A stretch of DNA of 34,297 nucleotides from IMG/VR virus record IMGVR_UViG_3300025684_000730, positions 1 to 34,297 of that record; one strand, given 5' to 3'. The first letter of the stretch is position 1. Every line of letters begins with the position of its first letter. Positions 6,936 through 28,226 of this stretch are shown piece by piece. A model generated the notes under the pieces. The model made no database searches, was not told where the DNA came from, and saw nothing but the letters and a program-made list of their open reading frames with translations. The translations under genes were made by a program, and so were the position numbers. The DNA is from a virus.

Positions 6936-8672
6936 ATGGCATTTTCAGAATCTCCAGCAATTACCATTAGAGAGGTTGACGCATCTGGTGTGGTGCCAGC
7001 AGTTTCTTCTTCTACCGGTGCATTTGTTGGTAATTTCCGTTGGGGCCCAGTCGAAAAACCAATTCTGATTTCAAATGAAGCAGAACTGGCAGACACTTTC
7101 GGCACTCCTACGGCTGCAACAGCTGTCGATTTCCATTCGGCAGCGTACTTTCTCAAGTATACAAATGCTCTTCAAGTTGTTCGCGTATTAGGCGATACCG
7201 ACGGTTATAACGCTTATAACCATAACGAAGCAGCAAGTGGAGCAAATGTCAGAATCAAAGACGGTGATGCATGGGATGCAGCGCTTGCAGGATTTGATTC
7301 CGATAAACACACATTTATAGCTAAATGGCCCGGAGCGCTGGGCAATAGCTTAAGAGTTTCCTTGTGCCCACAACAAGGTGCTGATTCAGCATTTGACGCT
7401 TGGGCATATAAAGACAACTTTGACACAGCACCAGGTACTTCACCGTTTGCTGAAGGTAAAACAGCTACTAATGACGAAGTTCACGTCGCTGTAATTGACA
7501 ACCTTGGCAAATTCTCAGGTACTAAAGGCACAGTCTTAGAAACATATCCGTTCATGTCGTTGGCAAAAAATGCTAAGACACCTGACGGATCTACAAATTA
7601 TGTAAGAGACGTAATCAATAGAAAGTCATCCTACATTTGGATGGCTGGGCATGACTCTGATTATACAGTTGCAAATGCTGGGCTAGATGCTGATACAAGC
7701 GTTGATTTCCAACTTTCGGCTGGCGTCTTGGCTGCTAAAAACTACGATCTTACCGAAGGTGATGAATCAGAAAATATGGACGTAGGTGACTATATTACTG
7801 GTTTTGATCAATTTGAAGACAAAGATAATATCCAAGTAGATCTTCTGATTGCTCCTCAAATGACTTCAAGGATAGATACTACTACAATAGTTAATGATCT
7901 TGTAAGTATTGCTCAAGGTCAACGTAAAGATTGCGTTGTCGTTGCATCTCCCGCTAGATCAGATATTGTAGGCTTACAAGCCACCGCTGCTAATACTAAT
8001 GCCGTCGCGACGGCAGCCACGTTTACAGCGTCATCGTATCTAGTAGTTGATAATAACTATCTTAAAGTCTATGATAAATATAACGACGAGTTTATTTTTA
8101 TCCCAGCAAACTCATCAACCGCAGGTGTTATGGCTGCGACTGATGTAACTGCGGCAACTTGGTTCTCACCAGCTGGCCCACGTCGTGGACAATATCTTGG
8201 TGTGACAGGTATCTCATACTCTCCGAACAAATCTCAGAGAGATGTACTATATCGTAACGGCATTAACCCGATTGCGAATATTCCTGGTCAAGGGTTGCTA
8301 CTATTCGGTGATAAGACAAAGCTTGCAAGACCTTCTGCATTCGATCGTATTAACGTACGTCGTTTGTTCTTGACTATCGAAAGGGCGATTGGAATCGCTG
8401 CTCGCAACGTTATGTTCGAATTCAATGATGAATTCACGAGAGCAGAATTTGTTGGCGTGGTTGAACCATTCTTAAGAGACATCAAAGGTCGTCGTGGCAT
8501 AACTGATTTCCGTGTGATTTGTGACGAAACAAACAACACTGGTGCAGTTATAGATAGAAATGAATTTGTCGCGACTGTCTTAGTCAAGCCTGCACGTTCC
8601 ATCAACTTTGTTACTCTTAACTTTGTTGCTGTACGTACCGGAGTTGATTTCGCAGAAATCGCTGGTGTATAG
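6936..8672 (+). CDS. 18: Tail sheath protein gp18
   Basis: A 578-residue contractile tail sheath subunit. The N-terminus (SPAITIREVDASG, then VSSSTGAFVGNFRWGP) is characteristic of gp18-type sheaths, in which this arm interlocks neighbouring subunits. The C-terminal third is the conserved core, with GRRGITDFRVICDETNNTG and SINFVTLNFVAVRTGVDFAE. The middle region carries the variable, surface-exposed domains. It follows its own late promoter and strong ribosome site, as expected for a protein needed in more than a hundred copies. It is somewhat shorter than T4 gp18 (659 residues), with the difference in the variable middle. The tail tube gene follows after 12 bp. Confidence 0.92.
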   Translation: MAFSESPAITIREVDASGVVPAVSSSTGAFVGNFRWGPVEKPILISNEAELADTFGTPTAATAVDFHSAAYFLKYTNALQVVRVLGDTDGYNAYNHNEAASGANVRIKDGDAWDAALAGFDSDKHTFIAKWPGALGNSLRVSLCPQQGADSAFDAWAYKDNFDTAPGTSPFAEGKTATNDEVHVAVIDNLGKFSGTKGTVLETYPFMSLAKNAKTPDGSTNYVRDVINRKSSYIWMAGHDSDYTVANAGLDADTSVDFQLSAGVLAAKNYDLTEGDESENMDVGDYITGFDQFEDKDNIQVDLLIAPQMTSRIDTTTIVNDLVSIAQGQRKDCVVVASPARSDIVGLQATAANTNAVATAATFTASSYLVVDNNYLKVYDKYNDEFIFIPANSSTAGVMAATDVTAATWFSPAGPRRGQYLGVTGISYSPNKSQRDVLYRNGINPIANIPGQGLLLFGDKTKLARPSAFDRINVRRLFLTIERAIGIAARNVMFEFNDEFTRAEFVGVVEPFLRDIKGRRGITDFRVICDETNNTGAVIDRNEFVATVLVKPARSINFVTLNFVAVRTGVDFAEIAGV

Positions 8673-8684
8673 GAGGTCAAATAG

Positions 8685-9215
8685 ATGGTTTTAGGCGTAG
8701 ACGATTTTAAAGCAAAACTAGCAGGTGGGGGCGCTCGTCCCAATCTGTTTAAAGTTACTGTTAACTTTCCAACAGCTATTCCCACCGATGGGGATGCTGA
8801 ATTGACATCTTTCTTGTGTAGAGCTGCGCAGTTGCCTGGCTCTACGATTCCTGCTATGACTGTTCCTTTCAGAGGCAGACAGTTACAAATGGCTGGTGAT
8901 CGAACATTTGAGCCATGGAGCGTAACTTGTATCAATGATACAAACTTCACAATCCGTAACTCTATGGAAAGATGGATGAATGGCATCAATGCTCATTCGT
9001 TGAATACCGGAGAAGTTAATCCAATAAATTATCAAGCTGATTTAAAAGTTGAACAACTAGATAAGGATGAAAAAGTCCTTAAGAGTTATAACTTTGTCGC
9101 TGCATTCCCAACAAGTATCTCACCTATTGAGCTTGCATATGATGCGAATGATCAGATTGAAGAGTTCACAATTGAGTGGACTTACCAATATTGGACATCA
9201 AACACAACTACATAA
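8685..9215 (+). CDS. 19: Tail tube protein gp19
   Basis: A 176-residue tail tube subunit. Landmarks are VLGVDDFKAKLAGGGARPNL at the start, FLCRAAQLPGSTIPA, FRGRQLQMAGDRTFEPWSV, a central NSMERWMNGINAH helix, and IEEFTIEWTYQYW near the end. This is the gp19 pattern and the length is close to T4 gp19 (163 residues). It stacks as hexamers inside the gp18 sheath. It begins 12 bp after the sheath gene with an AGGAGGT ribosome site, so both are made from one late transcript, and a hairpin terminator follows. Confidence 0.92.
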   Translation: MVLGVDDFKAKLAGGGARPNLFKVTVNFPTAIPTDGDAELTSFLCRAAQLPGSTIPAMTVPFRGRQLQMAGDRTFEPWSVTCINDTNFTIRNSMERWMNGINAHSLNTGEVNPINYQADLKVEQLDKDEKVLKSYNFVAAFPTSISPIELAYDANDQIEEFTIEWTYQYWTSNTTT

Positions 9216-9224
9216 GTTGGTATT

Positions 9225-9256
9225 GGAGAGGCTGGTACGCTGGCCTCTCTTTACTT
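9225..9256 (+). terminator. Hairpin terminator after gp19
   Basis: GAGAGGC (9226-9232) pairs with GCCTCTC (9243-9249) around a 10-base loop, followed by TTTACTTATTTT. A seven-pair, GC-containing stem with a moderately T-rich tail is a plausible intrinsic terminator for the sheath-tube transcript, perhaps partly leaky into gp20, which has no late promoter of its own that I can see. Confidence 0.65.
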
Positions 9257-9271
9257 ATTTTAGGATGAATT

Positions 9272-10780
9272 ATGGCCGACAATAATGCATTAAAAATATT
9301 TGGCTTCGAAATTCGAAGAGCAAATAAAAAAGAAGAAGACAAGAAGTTACAGTCTATTGTACCTCGTCAAGATGACGATGGTGCTGGATATGTTACTGCT
9401 TCTGGTTCTCATTATGGTCAGTATATTAATATTGATGGAGATGATTCTAAAGACAATCATCAAATGATTATGAAATACCGTGGCGTCTCAACGCACCCAG
9501 AAGTTGATGCCGCAATCGAAGATATTATCAACGAATCTATTTCAGCGTCAGAGAACGAACAAGCAGTTAAAATTTCGCTCGATAAGGTTGAAGTATCAGA
9601 TCAGATTAAAAAAGGAATTACCGAAGAGTTCGACAATGTCATTTCTATGTTGGACTTTGCCAATAACGGCCACGACATGTTTAAGCGTTGGTACATTGAT
9701 GGCAGATTATATCATCACCTTGTTGTAAATGAATCTAATATTAAAGCAGGTATTCAGGAAATCCGTCCTATCGATTCTGCAAAGGTTCGTAAAGTTAAAC
9801 AAGTAAAGAAAAAGAAAGATTCCATCACTGGAGCTATGATAGTAGAAAGTGTTGATGAATACTACATTTATCAGGAAAAACCTGGAAGTCAAACATCAGG
9901 AGTAAAACTATCTAATGACTCAGTGAGCTATGTTACATCTGGACTTCTGTCAGCTGATAGAAAAAAGGTTGTATCGCATTTACATAAAGCACTGAAGCCA
10001 ATCAATCAACTTCGAATGATGGAAGACTCACTGGTCATCTACCGGCTTGCACGGGCGCCTGAGAGGCGAATATTCTATATTGACGTGGGCAACTTACCAC
10101 GTGGTAAATCAGAACAATATATGAAAGACATTATGGCTCGTTACCGTAACAAGCTTGTATATGATGCAGACACAGGACAAATACGAGATGATCGCAAACA
10201 TATGTCGATGCTTGAGGATTTTTGGTTACCAAGACGTGAGGGCGGTAGAGGCACTGAGATTACTACCTTACCAGGAGGTGAAAACCTTGGACAGATCGAT
10301 GACATCATTTACTTCCAGAAACGCCTTTATAGATCGCTTAATGTTCCTATAGCTAGACTTGAACAAGAACAGCAATTTAGCCTAGGCCGATCTACAGAGA
10401 TAAGTAGAGACGAATTAAAGTTTCAGAAATTTATCGATAGACTTCGTCGTCGTTTCTCAATGTTATTCTTAGAGATTCTAAAGAAACAACTTGTGATGAA
10501 AGGTTTAATTACTGAAGAAGACTGGAACGAGTGGAAAAACGATTTAATCATTGATTACACTAGAGACAATCACTTTACAGAGTTAAAAGATGCTGAACTA
10601 CTAAGAGAAAGATTACAAACTTTAGATCAAGTAAGCCAATATGTTGGAGATTACTTCTCAAAAGAGTGGGTAATGAAAAACGTATTACAATTTGATGATG
10701 ATGATATTAAACAAGTTGCAAAACAATCTGATGAAGAGCAACCTACAGACGATCAACAAAATCTTCCAGATGAAGAATAA
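9272..10780 (+). CDS. 20: Portal protein gp20
   Basis: A 502-residue portal vertex subunit, close to T4 gp20 (524 residues). Family landmarks include KYRGVSTHPEVDAAIEDIIN, LYHHLVVNESNIKAGIQEIR, the conserved core ALKPINQLRMMEDSLVIYRL with RAPERRIFYIDVGNLP, and FWLPRREGGRGTEITTLPGG. The C-terminus is acidic (DEEQPTDDQQNLPDEE). The dodecameric portal nucleates prohead assembly, is the docking site of gp17 and later joins gp13/gp14. It has an AGGATGAATT ribosome region directly before the ATG. It lies between the tail tube gene and the prohead core genes, as in all T4 relatives. Confidence 0.93.
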   Translation: MADNNALKIFGFEIRRANKKEEDKKLQSIVPRQDDDGAGYVTASGSHYGQYINIDGDDSKDNHQMIMKYRGVSTHPEVDAAIEDIINESISASENEQAVKISLDKVEVSDQIKKGITEEFDNVISMLDFANNGHDMFKRWYIDGRLYHHLVVNESNIKAGIQEIRPIDSAKVRKVKQVKKKKDSITGAMIVESVDEYYIYQEKPGSQTSGVKLSNDSVSYVTSGLLSADRKKVVSHLHKALKPINQLRMMEDSLVIYRLARAPERRIFYIDVGNLPRGKSEQYMKDIMARYRNKLVYDADTGQIRDDRKHMSMLEDFWLPRREGGRGTEITTLPGGENLGQIDDIIYFQKRLYRSLNVPIARLEQEQQFSLGRSTEISRDELKFQKFIDRLRRRFSMLFLEILKKQLVMKGLITEEDWNEWKNDLIIDYTRDNHFTELKDAELLRERLQTLDQVSQYVGDYFSKEWVMKNVLQFDDDDIKQVAKQSDEEQPTDDQQNLPDEE

Positions 10781-22011: not shown

Positions 22012-22950
22012 ATGTCAAATGATTTTTTATGGGTCGAGAAATATCGACCTAAAACTATTTCTGAAACTATTTTGCCTCCGCAGCTAAAAGAGACGTTTCA
22101 GAAAATGGCGGATACCGGTGAATTGCCTAACATGCTTTTCACCGGTACTGCTGGTCTTGGTAAAACAACTGTTGCAAAAGCTTTATGTAACGAACTAGGC
22201 CTAGATTATATTGTAATCAACGGGTCAGAAGATGGCAACATTGATACACTTCGTGGTAAAATAAAACAATTTGCCTCAAGCGTTTCTTTACAAGGTGGCT
22301 TTAAAGTTGTAATACTTGATGAGGCAGACTATCTAAATCCACAATCAACACAACCGGCATTGCGTGGCTTTATTGAAGAGTTTAGCAATAACTGCCGGTT
22401 TATCCTTACTTGTAATTTTAAAAATCGTATTATCGAACCACTTCATTCTCGTTGTGGTGTTTATGAATTTAACACTACTAAGAAAGGAATGGCTGAATTA
22501 GCAGCTCAATTCTTTAAACGATTTATATATATACTAGGTCAGGAAAACGTACCGTTTGAAAAAAACGCTGCGGCAAATCTTGTCATGAAATACGCGCCAG
22601 ACTGGAGGAGGGTGTTAAATGAAGGACAAAGAGGTGGGTTTAGCGATAGCGGCATTAATGGTAATGGTAATAGTAATGGCCTTACTTCCGTTGGTGCTCT
22701 CACCAAGCATCTAAAAGAAAAAGACTTCAAGAAGATGAGGCACTGGGTCGCTAATAATATGGACGTAGATGCTTCAACAATATTCCGCGGTCTATACGAC
22801 AGTATGACTGAAACCGTAGCCAATAGATCAATACCTCAATTAGTTTTGATTTTAGCTGATTATCAATACAAGCATGCTTTTGTTGCAGATCATGAATTAA
22901 ACGTTGTAGCATGTATGACAGAGATTATGGCAAATGTAGAGTTCAATTAA
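22012..22950 (+). CDS. 44: Clamp loader large subunit gp44
   Basis: A 312-residue AAA+ ATPase equivalent to T4 gp44 (319 residues). It opens with FLWVEKYRPKTISETILPPQ, has Walker A TGTAGLGKTT, Walker B VVILDEADYL, the sensor 1 region FILTCNFKNRI and the SRC arginine-finger motif (LHSRCG). Between the lid and the C-terminal collar there is a short, low-complexity Gly/Asn/Ser stretch (about residues 207-217, GINGNGNSNG). It opens and closes the gp45 ring with gp62. The frame runs further upstream, but MSNDFLW with its GAAGGAAAG site is the start supported by alignment and the promoter. Its stop overlaps the next start by one base (TAATG). Confidence 0.93.
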   Translation: MSNDFLWVEKYRPKTISETILPPQLKETFQKMADTGELPNMLFTGTAGLGKTTVAKALCNELGLDYIVINGSEDGNIDTLRGKIKQFASSVSLQGGFKVVILDEADYLNPQSTQPALRGFIEEFSNNCRFILTCNFKNRIIEPLHSRCGVYEFNTTKKGMAELAAQFFKRFIYILGQENVPFEKNAAANLVMKYAPDWRRVLNEGQRGGFSDSGINGNGNSNGLTSVGALTKHLKEKDFKKMRHWVANNMDVDASTIFRGLYDSMTETVANRSIPQLVLILADYQYKHAFVADHELNVVACMTEIMANVEFN

Positions 22951-24002
22951 TGTTAATACTATATACTCAACCTAGATGTCACTTTTGTGAGATTTTAAAG
23001 CGCATGCTCAGTAAGATGGATGGCGCTGAAGATTGTAAGTTTGTTGATATCACTAAAGATCCAGAAGCTAAAGCCTTTCTAAAAAAGAAAGGACATAAAA
23101 CTGTTCCTATGTTATATTGGAGAGTGCCTGGACACGATATATGGATCAATAAGGACATTGATACTAAAAAGCTAACAGGTGAGAATTTAGGTCAACGGAT
23201 AAAAGACGCGGTAGCAGCAACTAAGAAAAATAACTGTCTCGTGTTTGATGTCGATGGAACTATTACTCCTAGTAGAGATAAGATAGATCCTGCTTATGCG
23301 GAAGTACTATTAGAACTTTCTAAAAAGGTTGACATTTACTTTCTTACTGGATCAGACTTTGCTAAAACTAAAGAACAGTTAGGAGATCTAACTAAAGTTG
23401 TAAAGGGTAGCTATCAGTGTGCCGGCAATGAGTTATGGGTAAATGATGAGTTAGTTCAATCTGTACCTGAATTTACAATGTCAAATTCGGCGATGTTAAA
23501 GTGGTGTAAGCAACGACTAGCTGAAAGTCCATTTCCAGTTCGTACCGGTAAAAAGCATATAGACTTACGGCCGGGTATGATGAACTTCTCAATCATTGGC
23601 CGAGGATGTACTAAGAAACAGCGGCAGCAATATATTAAATATGATGAGAAAACTAACGAAAGAGAACAATTAGCAAGAGACTTTAACGAAGTATTTCGCT
23701 CATACTCTGCTCAAATAGCTGGTGAGACTGGCATTGACGTATGTGAAGAAGGAAGAGATAAAGGACAGGTGTACAAACCCCTGCAAGAAGTGTATAATAG
23801 TATTATCTTCTTTGGTGATGATACTCAAGAAGGTGGCAATGATTTTCCATTTGCTAAACAAATACAATCTTTTCCTCATCGATGCTTCCATGTATCTGGT
23901 CCTGAAGAAACATTCGAACTTTTAGAAGGAATCAAAAGATTGTTTGTAGACGTTGTAGACGAATGGCCTGGAATAGACAGTGGAGTTGAAGGACAGTTAT
24001 GA
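22950..24002 (+). CDS. Glutaredoxin domain fused to eukaryote-type phosphomannomutase (HAD)
   Basis: A 350-residue two-domain protein. Residues 1-90 are a glutaredoxin: the redox motif CHFC at 10-13 after LYTQPR, and the cis-proline TVP at 51-53. Residues 96-332 match the eukaryotic phosphomannomutase (PMM) family of HAD enzymes: FDVDGTITPSRD (nucleophile Asp100, acid Asp102), LTGSDFAKTKEQLG at 132-145, RPGMMNFSIIGRGC at 207-220 (sugar-binding loop), DVCEEGRDK at 263-271 and FFGDDTQEGGNDF at 287-299. PMM interconverts mannose 6-phosphate and mannose 1-phosphate, feeding GDP-mannose synthesis. It starts on the last base of the gp44 stop and overlaps gp62 by four bases, so it sits between the two clamp-loader subunits, which are adjacent in T4. 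Whether the redox domain controls the mutase is unknown. Confidence 0.85.
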   Translation: MLILYTQPRCHFCEILKRMLSKMDGAEDCKFVDITKDPEAKAFLKKKGHKTVPMLYWRVPGHDIWINKDIDTKKLTGENLGQRIKDAVAATKKNNCLVFDVDGTITPSRDKIDPAYAEVLLELSKKVDIYFLTGSDFAKTKEQLGDLTKVVKGSYQCAGNELWVNDELVQSVPEFTMSNSAMLKWCKQRLAESPFPVRTGKKHIDLRPGMMNFSIIGRGCTKKQRQQYIKYDEKTNEREQLARDFNEVFRSYSAQIAGETGIDVCEEGRDKGQVYKPLQEVYNSIIFFGDDTQEGGNDFPFAKQIQSFPHRCFHVSGPEETFELLEGIKRLFVDVVDEWPGIDSGVEGQL

Positions 24003-24385: not shown

Positions 24386-24773
24386 GTGGTCTCCAGCGTC
24401 TATGCTGGAAATAACTCTAAGCGAACCTGATGATTTTCTAAAGGTTCGCGAAACGTTGACACGCATAGGTGTCGCATCCCGAAAAGACAAAAAACTATTT
24501 CAATCCTGTCATATATTGCATAAGCAAGGCAGGTATTTTATTGTACATTTTAAAGAATTGTTTTTACTTGATGGTAAGAAAGCTAATCTCGAAGAAAACG
24601 ACGTAGCTCGTAGAAACACTATTACGACGCTAATGTCTGATTGGGGATTAGTTGAAATTCAGAATACTGAAGAAGCTAAACTACTAGCCCCGTTAAGACA
24701 GATAAAGATTATTCCATTTAAAGAGAAAGATCAATGGGAGCTTTGTCCTAAATATAATATTGGCAATAAATGA
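24363..24773 (+). CDS. regA: Translational repressor RegA
   Basis: RegA, an RNA-binding repressor that in T4 blocks ribosome loading on early mRNAs including those of clamp and clamp-loader genes. The protein from MLEITLSEPDDFLKVRETL onward aligns with T4 RegA (122 residues), including QSCHILHKQGRYFIVHFKE, RRNTITTLMSDWGL and a KYNIGN ending. The ATG equivalent to T4 is at 24402, but no ribosome site is visible there. A GTG at 24363 has AGAAGG ten bases upstream and would add 13 residues (MEEQALVEWSPAS). I give the longer form; the shorter is possible. The start lies inside gp62, and the stop overlaps the DUF1289 gene by four bases. Confidence 0.9.
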   Translation: MEEQALVEWSPASMLEITLSEPDDFLKVRETLTRIGVASRKDKKLFQSCHILHKQGRYFIVHFKELFLLDGKKANLEENDVARRNTITTLMSDWGLVEIQNTEEAKLLAPLRQIKIIPFKEKDQWELCPKYNIGNK

Positions 24774-24958
24774 ATGATTTATACATAAGCCCGTGCAAAC
24801 AAATATGTCAACTTGATAAGGTTGATAAAGTTTGCAAGGGTTGCGGTCGTACTATTGAAGAAATTACAAAATGGTCAAAAATGACCCATTACGAAAGAAC
24901 AAAAGTTATGCAACGCTTAGGTTATGGGACTAGGCGTAAAAAAAATAATCGGAAATAA
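24770..24958 (+). CDS. DUF1289-family four-cysteine protein
   Basis: A 62-residue protein with the DUF1289 signature: SPCKQICQLDKVDKVCKGCG, then RTIEEITKWSKMTHYERTKV. The four cysteines in a C-x3-C-x8-C-x2-C layout should bind zinc or an iron-sulphur cluster; the family is common as small proteins in Proteobacteria and its function is not established. The C-terminus is very basic (RRKKNNRK), so nucleic-acid contact is possible. The ATG overlaps the RegA stop (ATGA). It is one of several genes suggesting a proteobacterial host. Confidence 0.83.
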   Translation: MNDLYISPCKQICQLDKVDKVCKGCGRTIEEITKWSKMTHYERTKVMQRLGYGTRRKKNNRK

Positions 24959-24961
24959 ACA

Positions 24962-25558
24962 TTGTATATTAAGATTATCGATAATTTTTTATCGGACCAT
25001 ACTATATCTAAAATTGATAAAGAACTTGAAGATATAGTATGGCCTAAACACTTTACTCGTTCTGGGTCCGACATGTATGAAAGTGCTGAGCTTGAAAAGC
25101 TACCAGTACTTAGGCAACTATATTTAAAGTATTCAAGTCCGTCTTGGTTAAAATTTTTAGAAGGTGAAATTGGAATACCAGGTATAGTTCCAGATCCTCA
25201 TCTTATTGGTGCTGGCTATAGCGAAATAAGAAATGGCGGGGATCTTAAACCGCACATAGACTTTAATTGGAACGATTCAATTAAATTATATAGAGTAGCA
25301 TCTTTAATAATATATCTCACAGATGATCACTTAGGTGGAGAGTTCAAACTAGAAGATAGAGAAGCTATAGAAACTAAAAGAAATCGCGCATTATTATTTG
25401 AGCACAGCGAAACTATCCGACATATGGTAATGCCAGTAAGTGGTATACGAAGAAGTGTTAGATTTTTTTACTATGCTTCAAAACTACAACCTCCTGAGGG
25501 TTATCATAGAAGTCTTTACGGTTTAGCTAACGGAATACCTTCAGATGTCGGCGAATAA
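24962..25558 (+). CDS. 2-oxoglutarate/Fe(II)-dependent oxygenase (prolyl-hydroxylase-like)
   Basis: A 198-residue protein of the Fe(II)/2-oxoglutarate oxygenase fold, close to P4H-like enzymes found in many marine phages. IKIIDNFLSDHTISKID at the start is the usual helix, KPHIDFNWN gives the HxD iron ligands, and HMVMPVSGIRRSVRFFYY gives the distal histidine with the arginine that binds 2-oxoglutarate (SVRFF). Between them are a typical LIIYLTDDHLGGEFKLED strand pair. Likely reaction is hydroxylation of a protein or sugar, but the substrate cannot be read. It starts at TTG, three bases after the DUF1289 stop. The next gene begins 14 bp inside it. Confidence 0.85.
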   Translation: MYIKIIDNFLSDHTISKIDKELEDIVWPKHFTRSGSDMYESAELEKLPVLRQLYLKYSSPSWLKFLEGEIGIPGIVPDPHLIGAGYSEIRNGGDLKPHIDFNWNDSIKLYRVASLIIYLTDDHLGGEFKLEDREAIETKRNRALLFEHSETIRHMVMPVSGIRRSVRFFYYASKLQPPEGYHRSLYGLANGIPSDVGE

Positions 25559-26705
25559 ATTTTATATTTGGGACATTAAATTTTATAAAGATCCCTTTGA
25601 TTTTAAAAGAGGTGAAATCTGGAATAGAGATATTATTAAGTTATTAAATAATGAGGTTGAATTCTTATATCCGAATAAAACAGTTGTTAATAACAGACTT
25701 AATAATTTTTTAATATTAAATTATTTGAATATCAAAGAATTTAAGCCTGGAGAAAAAATAGGGCTTAATGAAGAAATAAAAGATTTTTGCTGTAAAAACA
25801 GTATAAGAATTGTAGTTTCGTTCGCTAGAGAACATATTCGAAATGCACGAAAACATAAACCATATGATCCGCAGAACCTTCAAAAATTAGATAATGTGTA
25901 TTATATGTTTAATAAAAAATATTCTGCAAAAGGCACAGACCTCGGAATAAGTTTTTTTGACCATGCGTATAATATAGGTGACGTATTTTCGCACGATAAT
26001 ATTAATATTGAATACGATAAACCAATAGAAAAAACTAAAAAGTTTTCTATTATAACAGGACGACTAGGAGAAACAACCAGAGTAGATTTTGTTTTAAGAC
26101 TTCTCCGCGACAATTTGCATAACGACCCAGAAATATTATTTACTAAAATTAACGGCAAAGGTATTGACTCTGAATATATTCGGAGAAAATTTCCAAAGCA
26201 ACTTAAAGAAATATACGAAAAGAATAAATTGTATCTTGAAGAAGATACCTTTCTAGAAGATGATGTGAATATATCTAACCTATATAAGTCAGCTATTGAG
26301 TGGAGAGTTCCTGATATATTTTATAGTGCATTAATCAATGTCGTATTCGAAACTAGACCATATGCCTGGGCGCATGGATCTTTAACAGAAAAAACATGGA
26401 AGCCGATAATGGCAGGAATTCCATTTATATGGATATCTTTTCCACACCATATGCAGTATCTGAAATCTTTAGGATACAAGTTTTATAGCTTTATAGATTA
26501 TGGGTTTGATTCTATAGAAGATGATTATACAAGGTACAAAGCTGTATATCATGAATTTAAAAGATTAAACAACTTTTCTTTAGAGCAATTAAAGGAAATG
26601 ATTGATAGCGAAAGTCATATTGCAGAACATAATAAAAAAGTATTTTATAATAAAGATTATAAAAAAGAGATAATGAATGTCTTTTCTAGCATTACAAAAT
26701 TTTGA
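25545..26705 (+). CDS. Putative glycosyltransferase (fucosyltransferase-like C-terminus)
   Basis: A 386-residue protein with no clear N-terminal match. The C-terminal third has the motif LTEKTWKPIMAGIPFIWIS at about residues 278-296, followed by LKSLGYKFYSFIDYGFDSIE. This resembles the TEKtykpi..g.Ppi....... lk.lGfk.F...iDesYD pattern of GT10 fucosyltransferase and related GT-B enzymes, in which the Lys and nearby residues contact the nucleotide sugar. The N-terminal half contains IITGRLGETTRVDFVLRLLR. It lies between an oxygenase and a DegT-like gene with overlaps on both sides (14 and 29 bp), consistent with a sugar-modification operon. A fold search would decide. Confidence 0.55.
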   Translation: MSANKFYIWDIKFYKDPFDFKRGEIWNRDIIKLLNNEVEFLYPNKTVVNNRLNNFLILNYLNIKEFKPGEKIGLNEEIKDFCCKNSIRIVVSFAREHIRNARKHKPYDPQNLQKLDNVYYMFNKKYSAKGTDLGISFFDHAYNIGDVFSHDNINIEYDKPIEKTKKFSIITGRLGETTRVDFVLRLLRDNLHNDPEILFTKINGKGIDSEYIRRKFPKQLKEIYEKNKLYLEEDTFLEDDVNISNLYKSAIEWRVPDIFYSALINVVFETRPYAWAHGSLTEKTWKPIMAGIPFIWISFPHHMQYLKSLGYKFYSFIDYGFDSIEDDYTRYKAVYHEFKRLNNFSLEQLKEMIDSESHIAEHNKKVFYNKDYKKEIMNVFSSITKF

Positions 26706-27279
26706 AAATGAAGTAGCTGAATTTTTTGGCGCGCCATATGCCGTTGCAACTGATTGCTGTACGCATGCTATTGAAATGTGCCTTCAGCTTAAATTTTATG
26801 TACACCTGAATATACCAGCAAAAACTTATGTTTCTTTACCTTTCATGCTTGAAAAAATAAAAATGCCATATAGGCTTGTTGACAAAAATTGGATAGATTA
26901 TTACTATGTAGCGGATGACATAATTGATGCCGCGCTTTATTGGGAAAAAAACGGTTACATACCAAAAACTAAAATGTGTTTATCTTTTCATTTTAAAAAA
27001 CATATAAACATTGGTAGAGGTGGTATGATTCTTCTTGATAATAGAGAAGAAAGAGATAGACTCGTACGCATGAGGCATGATGGAAGATCTATATATGAAA
27101 ATAAAAATTATAATGAAGAAGATATTACAGAGATCGGCTATCATTATTATATGACACCTGAAACCGCTGCAATCGGTTCTGAAATATTTAAAAAGAAAAA
27201 AGATCTAAACCCAGAAAGTAAAGGCAGTGCAGACTATCGCGATATAAGAAAATACGCGTTTTTTAAAAAAAATGAATAG
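26677..27279 (+). CDS. Miniature DegT/DnrJ/EryC1-type PLP aminotransferase-like protein
   Basis: A 200-residue protein with DegT-family landmarks in order but compressed: NFENEVAEFFGAPYAVATD (family: fE..fA.y.G.kyaia), CCTHAIEMCLQL (sgTaAL.lal), IIDAAL (Asp84, equal to the PLP-nitrogen Asp of ieDaA), LSFHFKKHINIGRGGMILL with Lys108 in the place of the PLP lysine, and VRMRHDGRS. Full-length family members have about 370 residues, with Asp near 160 and Lys near 185; here about 75 residues are missing before the Asp, and the C-terminal half is missing after YYMTPETAAIGSEIF. The usual GEGG reads GRGG. It may be an active minimal enzyme, an inactive relic or a half that needs a partner. It overlaps the glycosyltransferase-like gene by 29 bp. 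Confidence 0.72.
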   Translation: MSFLALQNFENEVAEFFGAPYAVATDCCTHAIEMCLQLKFYVHLNIPAKTYVSLPFMLEKIKMPYRLVDKNWIDYYYVADDIIDAALYWEKNGYIPKTKMCLSFHFKKHINIGRGGMILLDNREERDRLVRMRHDGRSIYENKNYNEEDITEIGYHYYMTPETAAIGSEIFKKKKDLNPESKGSADYRDIRKYAFFKKNE

Positions 27280-27285
27280 CGGCTA

Positions 27286-27314
27286 TGTACATTTGGCATA
27301 GCAACCACTATATA
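27286..27314 (+). promoter_or_regulatory. Putative sigma70-type promoter nested over the hsp20 late promoter
   Basis: TGTACA (27286-27291), 17 bp, then TATATA (27309-27314), which overlaps the late element TATAAATA (27311-27318). An inverted repeat GCTATG (27282-27287) / CATAGC (27297-27302) brackets the end of the -35 box. The leader would be about 54 bases long, unlike the short leaders of the other early-type promoters. Confidence 0.5.
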
Positions 27315-27318
27315 AATA
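27311..27318 (+). promoter_or_regulatory. T4-type late promoter upstream of hsp20
   Basis: TATAAATA, 57 bp before the hsp20 ATG, in a 95-bp gap after the DegT-like gene. Its presence shows that hsp20 and the DUF1127 genes are expected late, during virion assembly. Confidence 0.78.
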
Positions 27319-27374
27319 ATACGGGTGCAGAATATTCTGACCCAAATAATCTTGCTTGATCTAAGGAGATAACA

Positions 27375-27848
27375 ATGACAGGCGCACACCAACTTTTCCC
27401 ACGTTCATCTTTCGTGGGCTTCGATCATTTATTCAATGAGCTAGAATTTACAGCTAAACATTCGAATGATCATTATCCACCCCACAACATTATTAAAGCT
27501 AATGAAACAGATTATCTGATTGAATTAGCTATTGCTGGGTTTACAAGAGATGAGATCTCTGTAGAAGTTAAAGACAGAACTTTGACTGTTACAGGGGAAC
27601 ACGTTTCTAAAGGTAGAAACTTTATTCATCGTGGTATATCTACGAAGAAATTTAAAAGAACTTTTAGGCTGTCTGAACACGTAAACGTAAACGGAGCAGA
27701 TATTCAGGATGGCATCTTGGCAATCGAATTGCAATATGTTATTCCAGAAGAAATGCGTCCTCGTAAAATTAATATTGGAAAATTTAACGAGGTCGAACAT
27801 GACACAAGCAATACTAACAGCACACAGCTACTCAACGAGGGCAGTTGA
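27375..27848 (+). CDS. hsp20: Small heat shock protein Hsp20
   Basis: A 157-residue alpha-crystallin-type chaperone of the IbpA kind. The N-terminus has SSFVGFDHLFNELEF, the crystallin domain runs from YPPHNIIKANETDYLIELAI through GFTRDEISVEVKDRTLTVTG to KKFKRTFRLSEHVNVNGADI and DGILAIELQYVIPEEMRPRK, with the conserved GI(L)AIEL strand and a PRKINI ending. It binds unfolding proteins and prevents aggregation; phage copies are common in marine T4-like genomes and may protect host or virion proteins during infection. A CTAAGGAGATAAC ribosome site precedes the ATG. The DUF1127 gene starts 50 bp inside its 3' end. Confidence 0.93.
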   Translation: MTGAHQLFPRSSFVGFDHLFNELEFTAKHSNDHYPPHNIIKANETDYLIELAIAGFTRDEISVEVKDRTLTVTGEHVSKGRNFIHRGISTKKFKRTFRLSEHVNVNGADIQDGILAIELQYVIPEEMRPRKINIGKFNEVEHDTSNTNSTQLLNEGS

Positions 27849-28053
27849 ACTAATTATTGAAGCGCTAAAAAGCATTTACAATAATCGAATTGAACGTAAA
27901 GCAATTCGTGAAACTGAAAAAGCTCTAAGCAATCTATCTGATTATGACTTGGCAGACATTGGCATTAGCCGCGGCGAGATCTATGAGATCGCTAGGTATA
28001 AATCGTCCATTGAACTCGTCAAAGTAAATCAAAATTTGCAAGGATGGGTTTAA
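27799..28053 (+). CDS. DUF1127-family small protein
   Basis: An 84-residue protein carrying the DUF1127 (YjiS-type) motif RETEKALSNLSDYDLADIGI followed by SRGEIYEIARYK. This motif is abundant in alphaproteobacteria and occurs in small proteins linked with RNA handling and stress responses; no function is proven for phage copies. The frame runs further upstream, but the ATG at 27799 has GAGG nine bases before it, whereas the upstream ATGs lie deep in hsp20. It overlaps hsp20 by 50 bp. Its stop shares a base with the start of the next small gene. Confidence 0.82.
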   Translation: MTQAILTAHSYSTRAVELIIEALKSIYNNRIERKAIRETEKALSNLSDYDLADIGISRGEIYEIARYKSSIELVKVNQNLQGWV

Positions 28054-28226
28054 TGACAACAGCAGTAATGTCTACTATATTCTCGCCCTTATCGGGCTTG
28101 TGGTCTTCACTAGATCGTACGATCCAAGTTGTGGGATATTCCAAGGCGGCGGCAGAGCTAGCCAGATTGGGATACCACGAGGAGAGCAAAGCCTGTATGA
28201 TGGAAATTGCCAAATTGCGTAACTAA
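28053..28226 (+). CDS. Small hypothetical protein paired with the DUF1127 gene
   Basis: A 57-residue protein starting at ATG 28053 (TAATG with the DUF1127 stop) and preceded by AAGGA. It has a short hydrophobic N-terminus (MSTIFSPLSGLWSSLDRTI) and a helix with YSKAAAELARLGYHEESKAC. The Y-S-K-A-A-A-E-L-A-R-L-G stretch resembles small alphaproteobacterial proteins that often accompany DUF1127, but I cannot name a family. An ATG nine bases upstream (28044) is also possible. A hairpin terminator follows, so it closes the hsp20 transcript. Confidence 0.7.
   Translation: MTTAVMSTIFSPLSGLWSSLDRTIQVVGYSKAAAELARLGYHEESKACMMEIAKLRN

Follow-up and report, generated by a model that had tools for sequence, protein, structure and literature searches.

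Is a virus-encoded DegT-type protein of 200 residues a minimal enzyme, a subunit of some other kind, or what is left of a larger gene? Fold type I aminotransferases, as characterized in PMC9309667, consist of a large seven-stranded domain and a small C-terminal domain and are dimers when active. DegT-type members usually have about 370 residues, divided between a large PLP domain and a distinct C-terminal one, and form homodimers whose subunits share the active sites; the protein considered here has 200 residues and a single domain in its predicted model. An earlier note, made from the letters of this DNA alone, proposed that it is either a minimal or half enzyme or a decayed copy that is still translated.

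The window, meaning the whole 34,297-base virus record, encodes a terminase, tail sheath, UvsW-like helicase, late sigma factor, SbcC-like nuclease subunit, sliding clamp, clamp loader, RegA-type repressor, DNA polymerase and primase, as identified by Pfam and PHROGs. This gene set is T4-type, and the genes are named here in T4 style. The mini-DegT gene lies between the RegA-type repressor and Hsp20 genes, in the order repressor, 2OG-Fe(II) oxygenase, 386-aa gene, mini-DegT (Table 1). In the ORF list it runs from ATG to TAG, which bears out the normal stop described in the earlier note, and its start overlaps the upstream 386-aa ORF (end 26705) by 29 bases. That upstream gene has no PHROG and no credible match among PDB sequences. 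The note had also placed a promoter region behind the gene, which did not hold up: promoter-like sites across 24700-28100 number 20, against 17.8 (sd 4.0) in shuffled sequences, so the best site in the 95-base gap 3' of mini-DegT (27293-27320) is no more than expected by chance.

Table 1. The half-size DegT gene, its active-site positions and its upstream neighbours in the window. Residue roles are putative, transferred by alignment from Spr1654; residue counts are from 150 family sequences.
Feature	Position	Strand	Support
Glutaredoxin-phosphomannomutase fusion	22911..24002	+	PF03332 E 8e-29, PF00462 E 1.3e-8
2OG-Fe(II) oxygenase, second gene upstream of mini-DegT	24962..25558	+	PF13640 E 5.6e-13
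Overlapping upstream gene, 386 aa, without family	25545..26705	+	Pfam G1_gp67_C only, below cut-off
Half-size DegT-fold protein (predicted), 200 aa	26677..27279	+	PF01041 E 3.6e-16; model pLDDT 95.0, pTM 0.91; Foldseek and VIA-align matches to sugar aminotransferases
T29, phosphate-binding Thr/Ser (Thr59 of Spr1654)	26761..26763	+	T 86, S 62, C 2 of 150; role from PMC5936713
Y51, PLP-contacting/stacking aromatic (Tyr84 of Spr1654)	26827..26829	+	Y 150/150; role from PMC5936713
D84, PLP N1 aspartate (Asp170 of Spr1654)	26926..26928	+	D 150/150
S103, phosphate-binding serine (Ser194 of Spr1654)	26983..26985	+	S 149/150
K108, Schiff-base lysine (Lys199 of Spr1654)	26998..27000	+	K 150/150
R114, replaces Glu205 of Spr1654 (Lys+6)	27016..27018	+	R 84, K 66 of 150
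C-terminal tail, residues 186-200, motif D-x-[PR]-D-L, replaces C-terminal domain	27232..27276	+	D186 145, P188 146, D189 142, L190 141 of 150

The glutaredoxin-phosphomannomutase fusion is eukaryotic-type in its phosphomannomutase part and has clamp-loader genes on both sides; it is possibly relevant to mini-DegT through a putative route from phosphomannomutase to GDP-mannose. The record also has a cytidylyltransferase-like gene and a NodU-like carbamoyltransferase gene that is partial: its 301-aa ORF, at 798-1703 on the minus strand, contains the N-terminal part of a carbamoyltransferase (PF02543, 1.6e-23), is short for a NodU-type enzyme, and is possibly another half-size sugar-modifying gene.

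By homology, the mini protein is a member of the DegT superfamily. The earlier note had named a DegT profile search as a test, and PF01041 (DegT/DnrJ/EryC1/StrS) matches the window protein in two stretches with 59.8 bits against a cut-off of 19.8; it also matches all 123 aligned mini members at E <= 0.01. Using 15 full-length DegT proteins from neighbouring loci as the reference for profile alignment, hhalign placed residues 4-177 on positions 38-254 of a 378-position template (probability 99.4), pairing D84 with the PLP aspartate and K108 with the Schiff-base lysine. The family blocks therefore occur in order, and the missing parts lie where they had been reported, before the Asp (about 40 residues) and after the lysine region (template 255-378, the last 124 positions); about 34 N-terminal residues, the arm, are gone too. 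Judged by this alignment, the absent C-terminal stretch is most of the C-terminal domain. NCBIfam equivalogs (PseC, LegC, WecE, ArnB, DesI) all scored the window protein far below their cut-offs (PseC 32 vs 423.5, LegC 30.2 vs 420, the rest lower). In architecture and at two active-site positions, the protein departs from the usual enzymes of its superfamily.

The predicted structure agrees with the profile results. The AlphaFold2 monomer, built on the 123-sequence alignment, is one confident domain (Table 1), and a Foldseek search with it returned 141 PDB chains at E <= 0.001. DegT-type enzymes fill the top 50, with ArnB (3.1e-9) and GDP-perosamine synthase (9.2e-9) at the head. VIA-align superposed the predicted monomer on 7b0d with Z 18.7 over 190 residues at 2.7 A. 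Because this alignment reaches residue 325 of the 7b0d chain, going by its end points, the C-terminal tail overlies part of the usual C-terminal domain. Structure prediction, which had been suggested as a check and was done here on the monomer, thus indicates that the DegT-type PLP-domain fold is present.

Residue roles were transferred from Spr1654, a solved relative, using PMC5936713, and residues were counted in 150 sequences that are <90% identical (pairwise identity from 26%, median 43%; L007, L023, L024, L025 and L152 left out). The Schiff-base lysine, PLP N1 aspartate, ring aromatic and phosphate-binding Ser/Thr are all present in the family alignment (Table 1). The patterns used to fetch relatives spanned D26-I33 and G154-T160, and in the cellular search also T98-F106, and conservation in these stretches is partly by construction; this applies to T29, which sits inside a search pattern. 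K108, D84 and Y51 lie outside the patterns that fetched the two large viral sets.

The substrate side is different. Gln is known from other DegT enzymes at Asp+3, three residues after the PLP aspartate. In Spr1654 this residue is His173, which holds PLP O3' (PMC5936713); the minis have neither His nor Gln at this position, 87 (V 82, L 66, T 1, K 1 of 150). Glu205 of Spr1654, at Lys+6, is described in the same paper as conserved among all sugar aminotransferases and tied to donor binding, and all 150 minis have Arg or Lys in its place. Position 105, equivalent to His196 of Spr1654, is variable (Q 81, T 63, H 5, S 1 of 150). The substrate-binding His344-Tyr345 of the Spr1654 C-terminal domain and its nucleotide contacts 28 and 30 of the other subunit (PMC5936713) have their counterparts in regions lost from the minis. 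Since the K/D/Y/S/T positions are conserved, positions 87 and 114 are changed and the substrate regions are lost, the cofactor-holding set has been retained and the substrate side rebuilt. Such a residue pattern is what one would expect of a PLP enzyme whose mode of binding has changed, without amounting to proof of transamination.

To place the gene in a family, we searched phage, uncultured viral and cellular sequences. In the phage collection, 7 of 50,697 records matched with each of three queries, each over >= 80% of the query in a single piece of about 600 bases, so other phage genes of similar length do occur, as the earlier note had suggested looking for. Against these seven stand at least 587 uncultured viral relatives (tblastn): a first scan of uncultured viral contigs gave 20 loci, and two profile scans found at least 587 and at least 584 relatives among the 600 stretches listed in each, of which the first 80 of each were kept. 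In cellular genomes, 19 of 59 stretches matched. The mini gene was found in 3 of 100 relatives of one alphaproteobacterial genome (E <= 1e-30) and is therefore sparse in cells. The resulting 204 loci, the window copy among them, have one mini ORF each; that all of them carry it is by construction because loci were fetched for matching.

Among these kept loci, 195 of 204 homologous ORFs are 185-225 aa long. The nine outliers include L007 and L023, which are cut by contig ends; L154 (321 aa), which has a longer N-terminal extension; L118 (872 aa) and L152 (858 aa, cut by a contig end), which are fusions at the end of a large protein; and four ORFs of 234-250 aa. In L118 (1249-3867) and L152 (2997-5573), the mini-DegT is the tail of the long protein, and the front part of L118 matches glycosyltransferase group 1 and FkbM methyltransferase. 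L024 (524-1084), though counted among the 195, loses its frame after about residue 157, through an assembly error or as a broken copy. We distinguish clades A and B by H or N at position 156, and the window lineage (window, L019, L021, L022), which is set apart by the tree. In this tree, made by a quick method, a 100% branch parts the mini family from the 15 full-length DegT proteins; it came with a long-branch warning and so does not prove a single origin. Altogether, mini-DegT is a conserved half-size family of many uncultured viruses and a few microbes.

Gene neighbourhoods were counted in the 150-sequence set, which includes 81 loci of clade A (the sister lineage of the window), 65 of clade B and 4 of the window lineage. 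In clade A, the +1 gene is an SDR in 60/81 loci and bears the GDP-mannose 4,6-dehydratase (GMD) signature TGxxGQDG[SA] in 51/81; GMD is absent at +1 in the other 30. The SDR beside L029 has GDP-mannose 4,6-dehydratase as its best PDB match (2.4e-92), and SSSEMFG occurs in 66 of 69 SDR genes at +1, near-copies included. Of the 60 loci where GMD follows directly, 32 have it overlapping the mini gene by 4 bases, and in a small control sample a full-length DegT gene was followed by GMD in 0 of 10. PF16363 is a broad model, so its matches in 31 of 40 records are not a GMD count; it found nothing in the window record. A small methyltransferase lies directly upstream in 19/80 clade A loci, and a cupin-like gene is often nearby. 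The latter belongs to a conserved family of 138 aa upstream of mini-DegT (L029 4069-4485 and 57 further loci), whose representative has no Pfam or PHROG match. The cellular contigs L187 and L196 also have the order cupin, methyltransferase, mini, GMD, with a full-length DegT gene alongside, and their neighbours, read by eye, resemble surface-polysaccharide genes.

In clade B, GMD is at +1 in 0/64 loci, and a PglD-like gene is found at +1 in 26/64 and within four genes in 38/65. A representative of these acetyltransferases has VioB (1.6e-24) and perosamine N-acetyltransferase (6.2e-21) as its nearest matches, and the SDR in L109 is closest to dTDP-glucose 4,6-dehydratase (1.4e-100). Overall, 163/204 loci encode at least one of the following no more than four genes away: an SDR, a hexapeptide transferase, a glycosyltransferase, a WbqC-like protein or a full-length DegT protein. 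PHROGs name few of the neighbours. These neighbours point to 4-amino-sugar synthesis in the related lineages. In the window lineage itself, neither GMD (0/3) nor PglD (0/3) is at +1. A window-like phage record, L208, has at 874-1653 and 8151-9898 a DAHP/KDO8P-synthase-type gene (PF00793, 1e-51), a sugar-nucleotide epimerase and, by eye, a UDP-glucose dehydrogenase-like gene.

We lean towards the view that the gene encodes a complete, functional mini DegT sugar aminotransferase, for which a 4-keto-6-deoxy-hexose would be the likely acceptor in related lineages. Its best reading, from sequence and model, is a minimal PLP-dependent nucleotide-sugar aminotransferase. The protein, presumably as a dimer, would bind PLP via the retained K108, D84, Y51, S103 and T29 and aminate a keto sugar nucleotide, at C4 in lineages where it lies beside GMD or VioB/PerB-like genes. 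There, the adjoining GMD would make GDP-4-keto-6-deoxymannose, the likely acceptor, and the product would be a GDP-perosamine-like sugar that other neighbours may then acylate or methylate and transfer. R/K114 possibly holds the donor carboxylate or a sugar phosphate. The weakest step in this account is the putative substrate of the window protein, since the partner genes in its phage differ from those of the related lineages.

Another possibility, which we consider unlikely but worth weighing, is a PLP enzyme that carries out other chemistry or attacks elsewhere on the sugar. It might aminate C3 once a cupin-type ketoisomerase has acted, or supply a radical SAM enzyme in the way that DesI supplies DesII. 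The donor site, with Glu replaced by Arg or Lys, would reflect such chemistry, and two active-site positions are changed family-wide. In clade A, a cupin-like gene is within four genes in 49/81 loci, and its model (pLDDT 90.7) has weak Foldseek matches that include 3,4-ketoisomerases (E ~0.02); however, nothing reaches E <= 0.001, and the model superposes poorly on the ketoisomerases (TM ~0.4, rmsd ~13). A radical SAM gene directly follows mini-DegT in L022 (6588-8393, with a B12-binding domain), L021 (6588-7793), L019 (6600-7307) and L001 (8588-9388), i.e., in the window lineage and Synechococcus phage S-SCSM2R, but these are only 4 of 149 loci. Amination at C4 is also the simpler fit to the GMD and VioB/PerB-like neighbours.

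We regard as improbable a non-catalytic or helper role, in which the protein would be a partner for GMD or for a full-length DegT enzyme, or would simply bind a sugar nucleotide. About half of the enzyme is gone, including the known substrate-binding parts, and both the 4-base overlap with GMD and the L118 fusion to a glycosyltransferase/FkbM methyltransferase protein would suit a helper; yet a pure scaffold gives no reason for invariant K108 and D84. A PF01041 search of 13 large viral records, all classed as linear and possibly incomplete, found a full-length DegT protein in 7, which favours such a role, and none in the other 6, which speaks against it; we set aside a compulsory full-length partner in the same phage.

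Selection on the gene speaks to whether it is intact. Estimates of dN/dS are 0.047-0.060 against five close relatives (L008, L009, L010, L014, L016), 0.084 and 0.116 for L021 and L022, whose dS approaches saturation, and 0.044-0.169 across all 28 pairs; mini-DegT is under purifying selection. The half size, the lost N- and C-terminal parts and the frame loss in L024 might point to decay or truncation of a gene still being translated. This reading is effectively ruled out by the dN/dS against close relatives and the conserved length, and it is at odds with the family's own conserved C-terminal motif. The minimal or half enzyme of the earlier note is thus the alternative that stands, on profile, predicted fold, invariant PLP residues and conserved length, and the decayed copy falls, given that dN/dS and the fact that even highly diverged relatives keep a closed frame of this length.

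The reading of mini-DegT as a minimal aminotransferase can be set against known systems. GDP-perosamine synthase of C. crescentus (3bn1/3dr7) is the best PDB match of the family profile (3bn1, E 8.9e-14) and among the best fold matches, and its PLP Lys, Asp, Ser, Thr and aromatic positions are aligned or kept in the minis. It uses the product of GMD, which adjoins the mini gene in clade A (51/81) and in none of the window lineage (0/3) or clade B (0/64) loci. It differs in having 373-391 aa and two domains, against 195-215 aa and one domain, and the mini has other residues in place of the conserved Glu and at Asp+3. ArnB, the best Foldseek match of the window model (TM 0.66 by query; VIA-align Z 17.8, 192 residues), is twice as long, has the C-terminal domain and has Glu at the R114 position (conservation per PMC5936713). 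Named phage minis, from Synechococcus phage S-SCSM2R (PQ898602), Flavobacterium phages immuto (MW353175-7, NC_055915) and the uncultured LR756502 and LR756511, resemble the window protein in length class and motifs. They are annotated as 3-amino-5-hydroxybenzoic acid synthase or WecE transaminase, with their size unremarked, and the LR records are without annotation. In the open-licence PMC literature we found no paper on a half-size DegT protein.

For the family as a whole, we propose, about as ready to doubt as to believe it, that the minis are virus-enriched, active PLP enzymes of about 195-215 aa without the C-terminal domain, with the donor site rebuilt on an invariant Arg/Lys, and that phages and a few marine bacteria use them for 4-amino-sugar synthesis together with GMD or with acetyltransferases like VioB/PerB. 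In that case, active mini-DegTs would, to our knowledge, rank with the smallest enzymes that have the aminotransferase fold. Database names hide the half size of these proteins. A stable, natural half-length aminotransferase would make clear how large a part of the enzyme is essential, and enzymologists would gain a small scaffold. The mini-DegTs probably take part in making unusual amino sugars that go into surface glycans, and they give a concrete lead on amino-sugar synthesis by uncultured marine phages.
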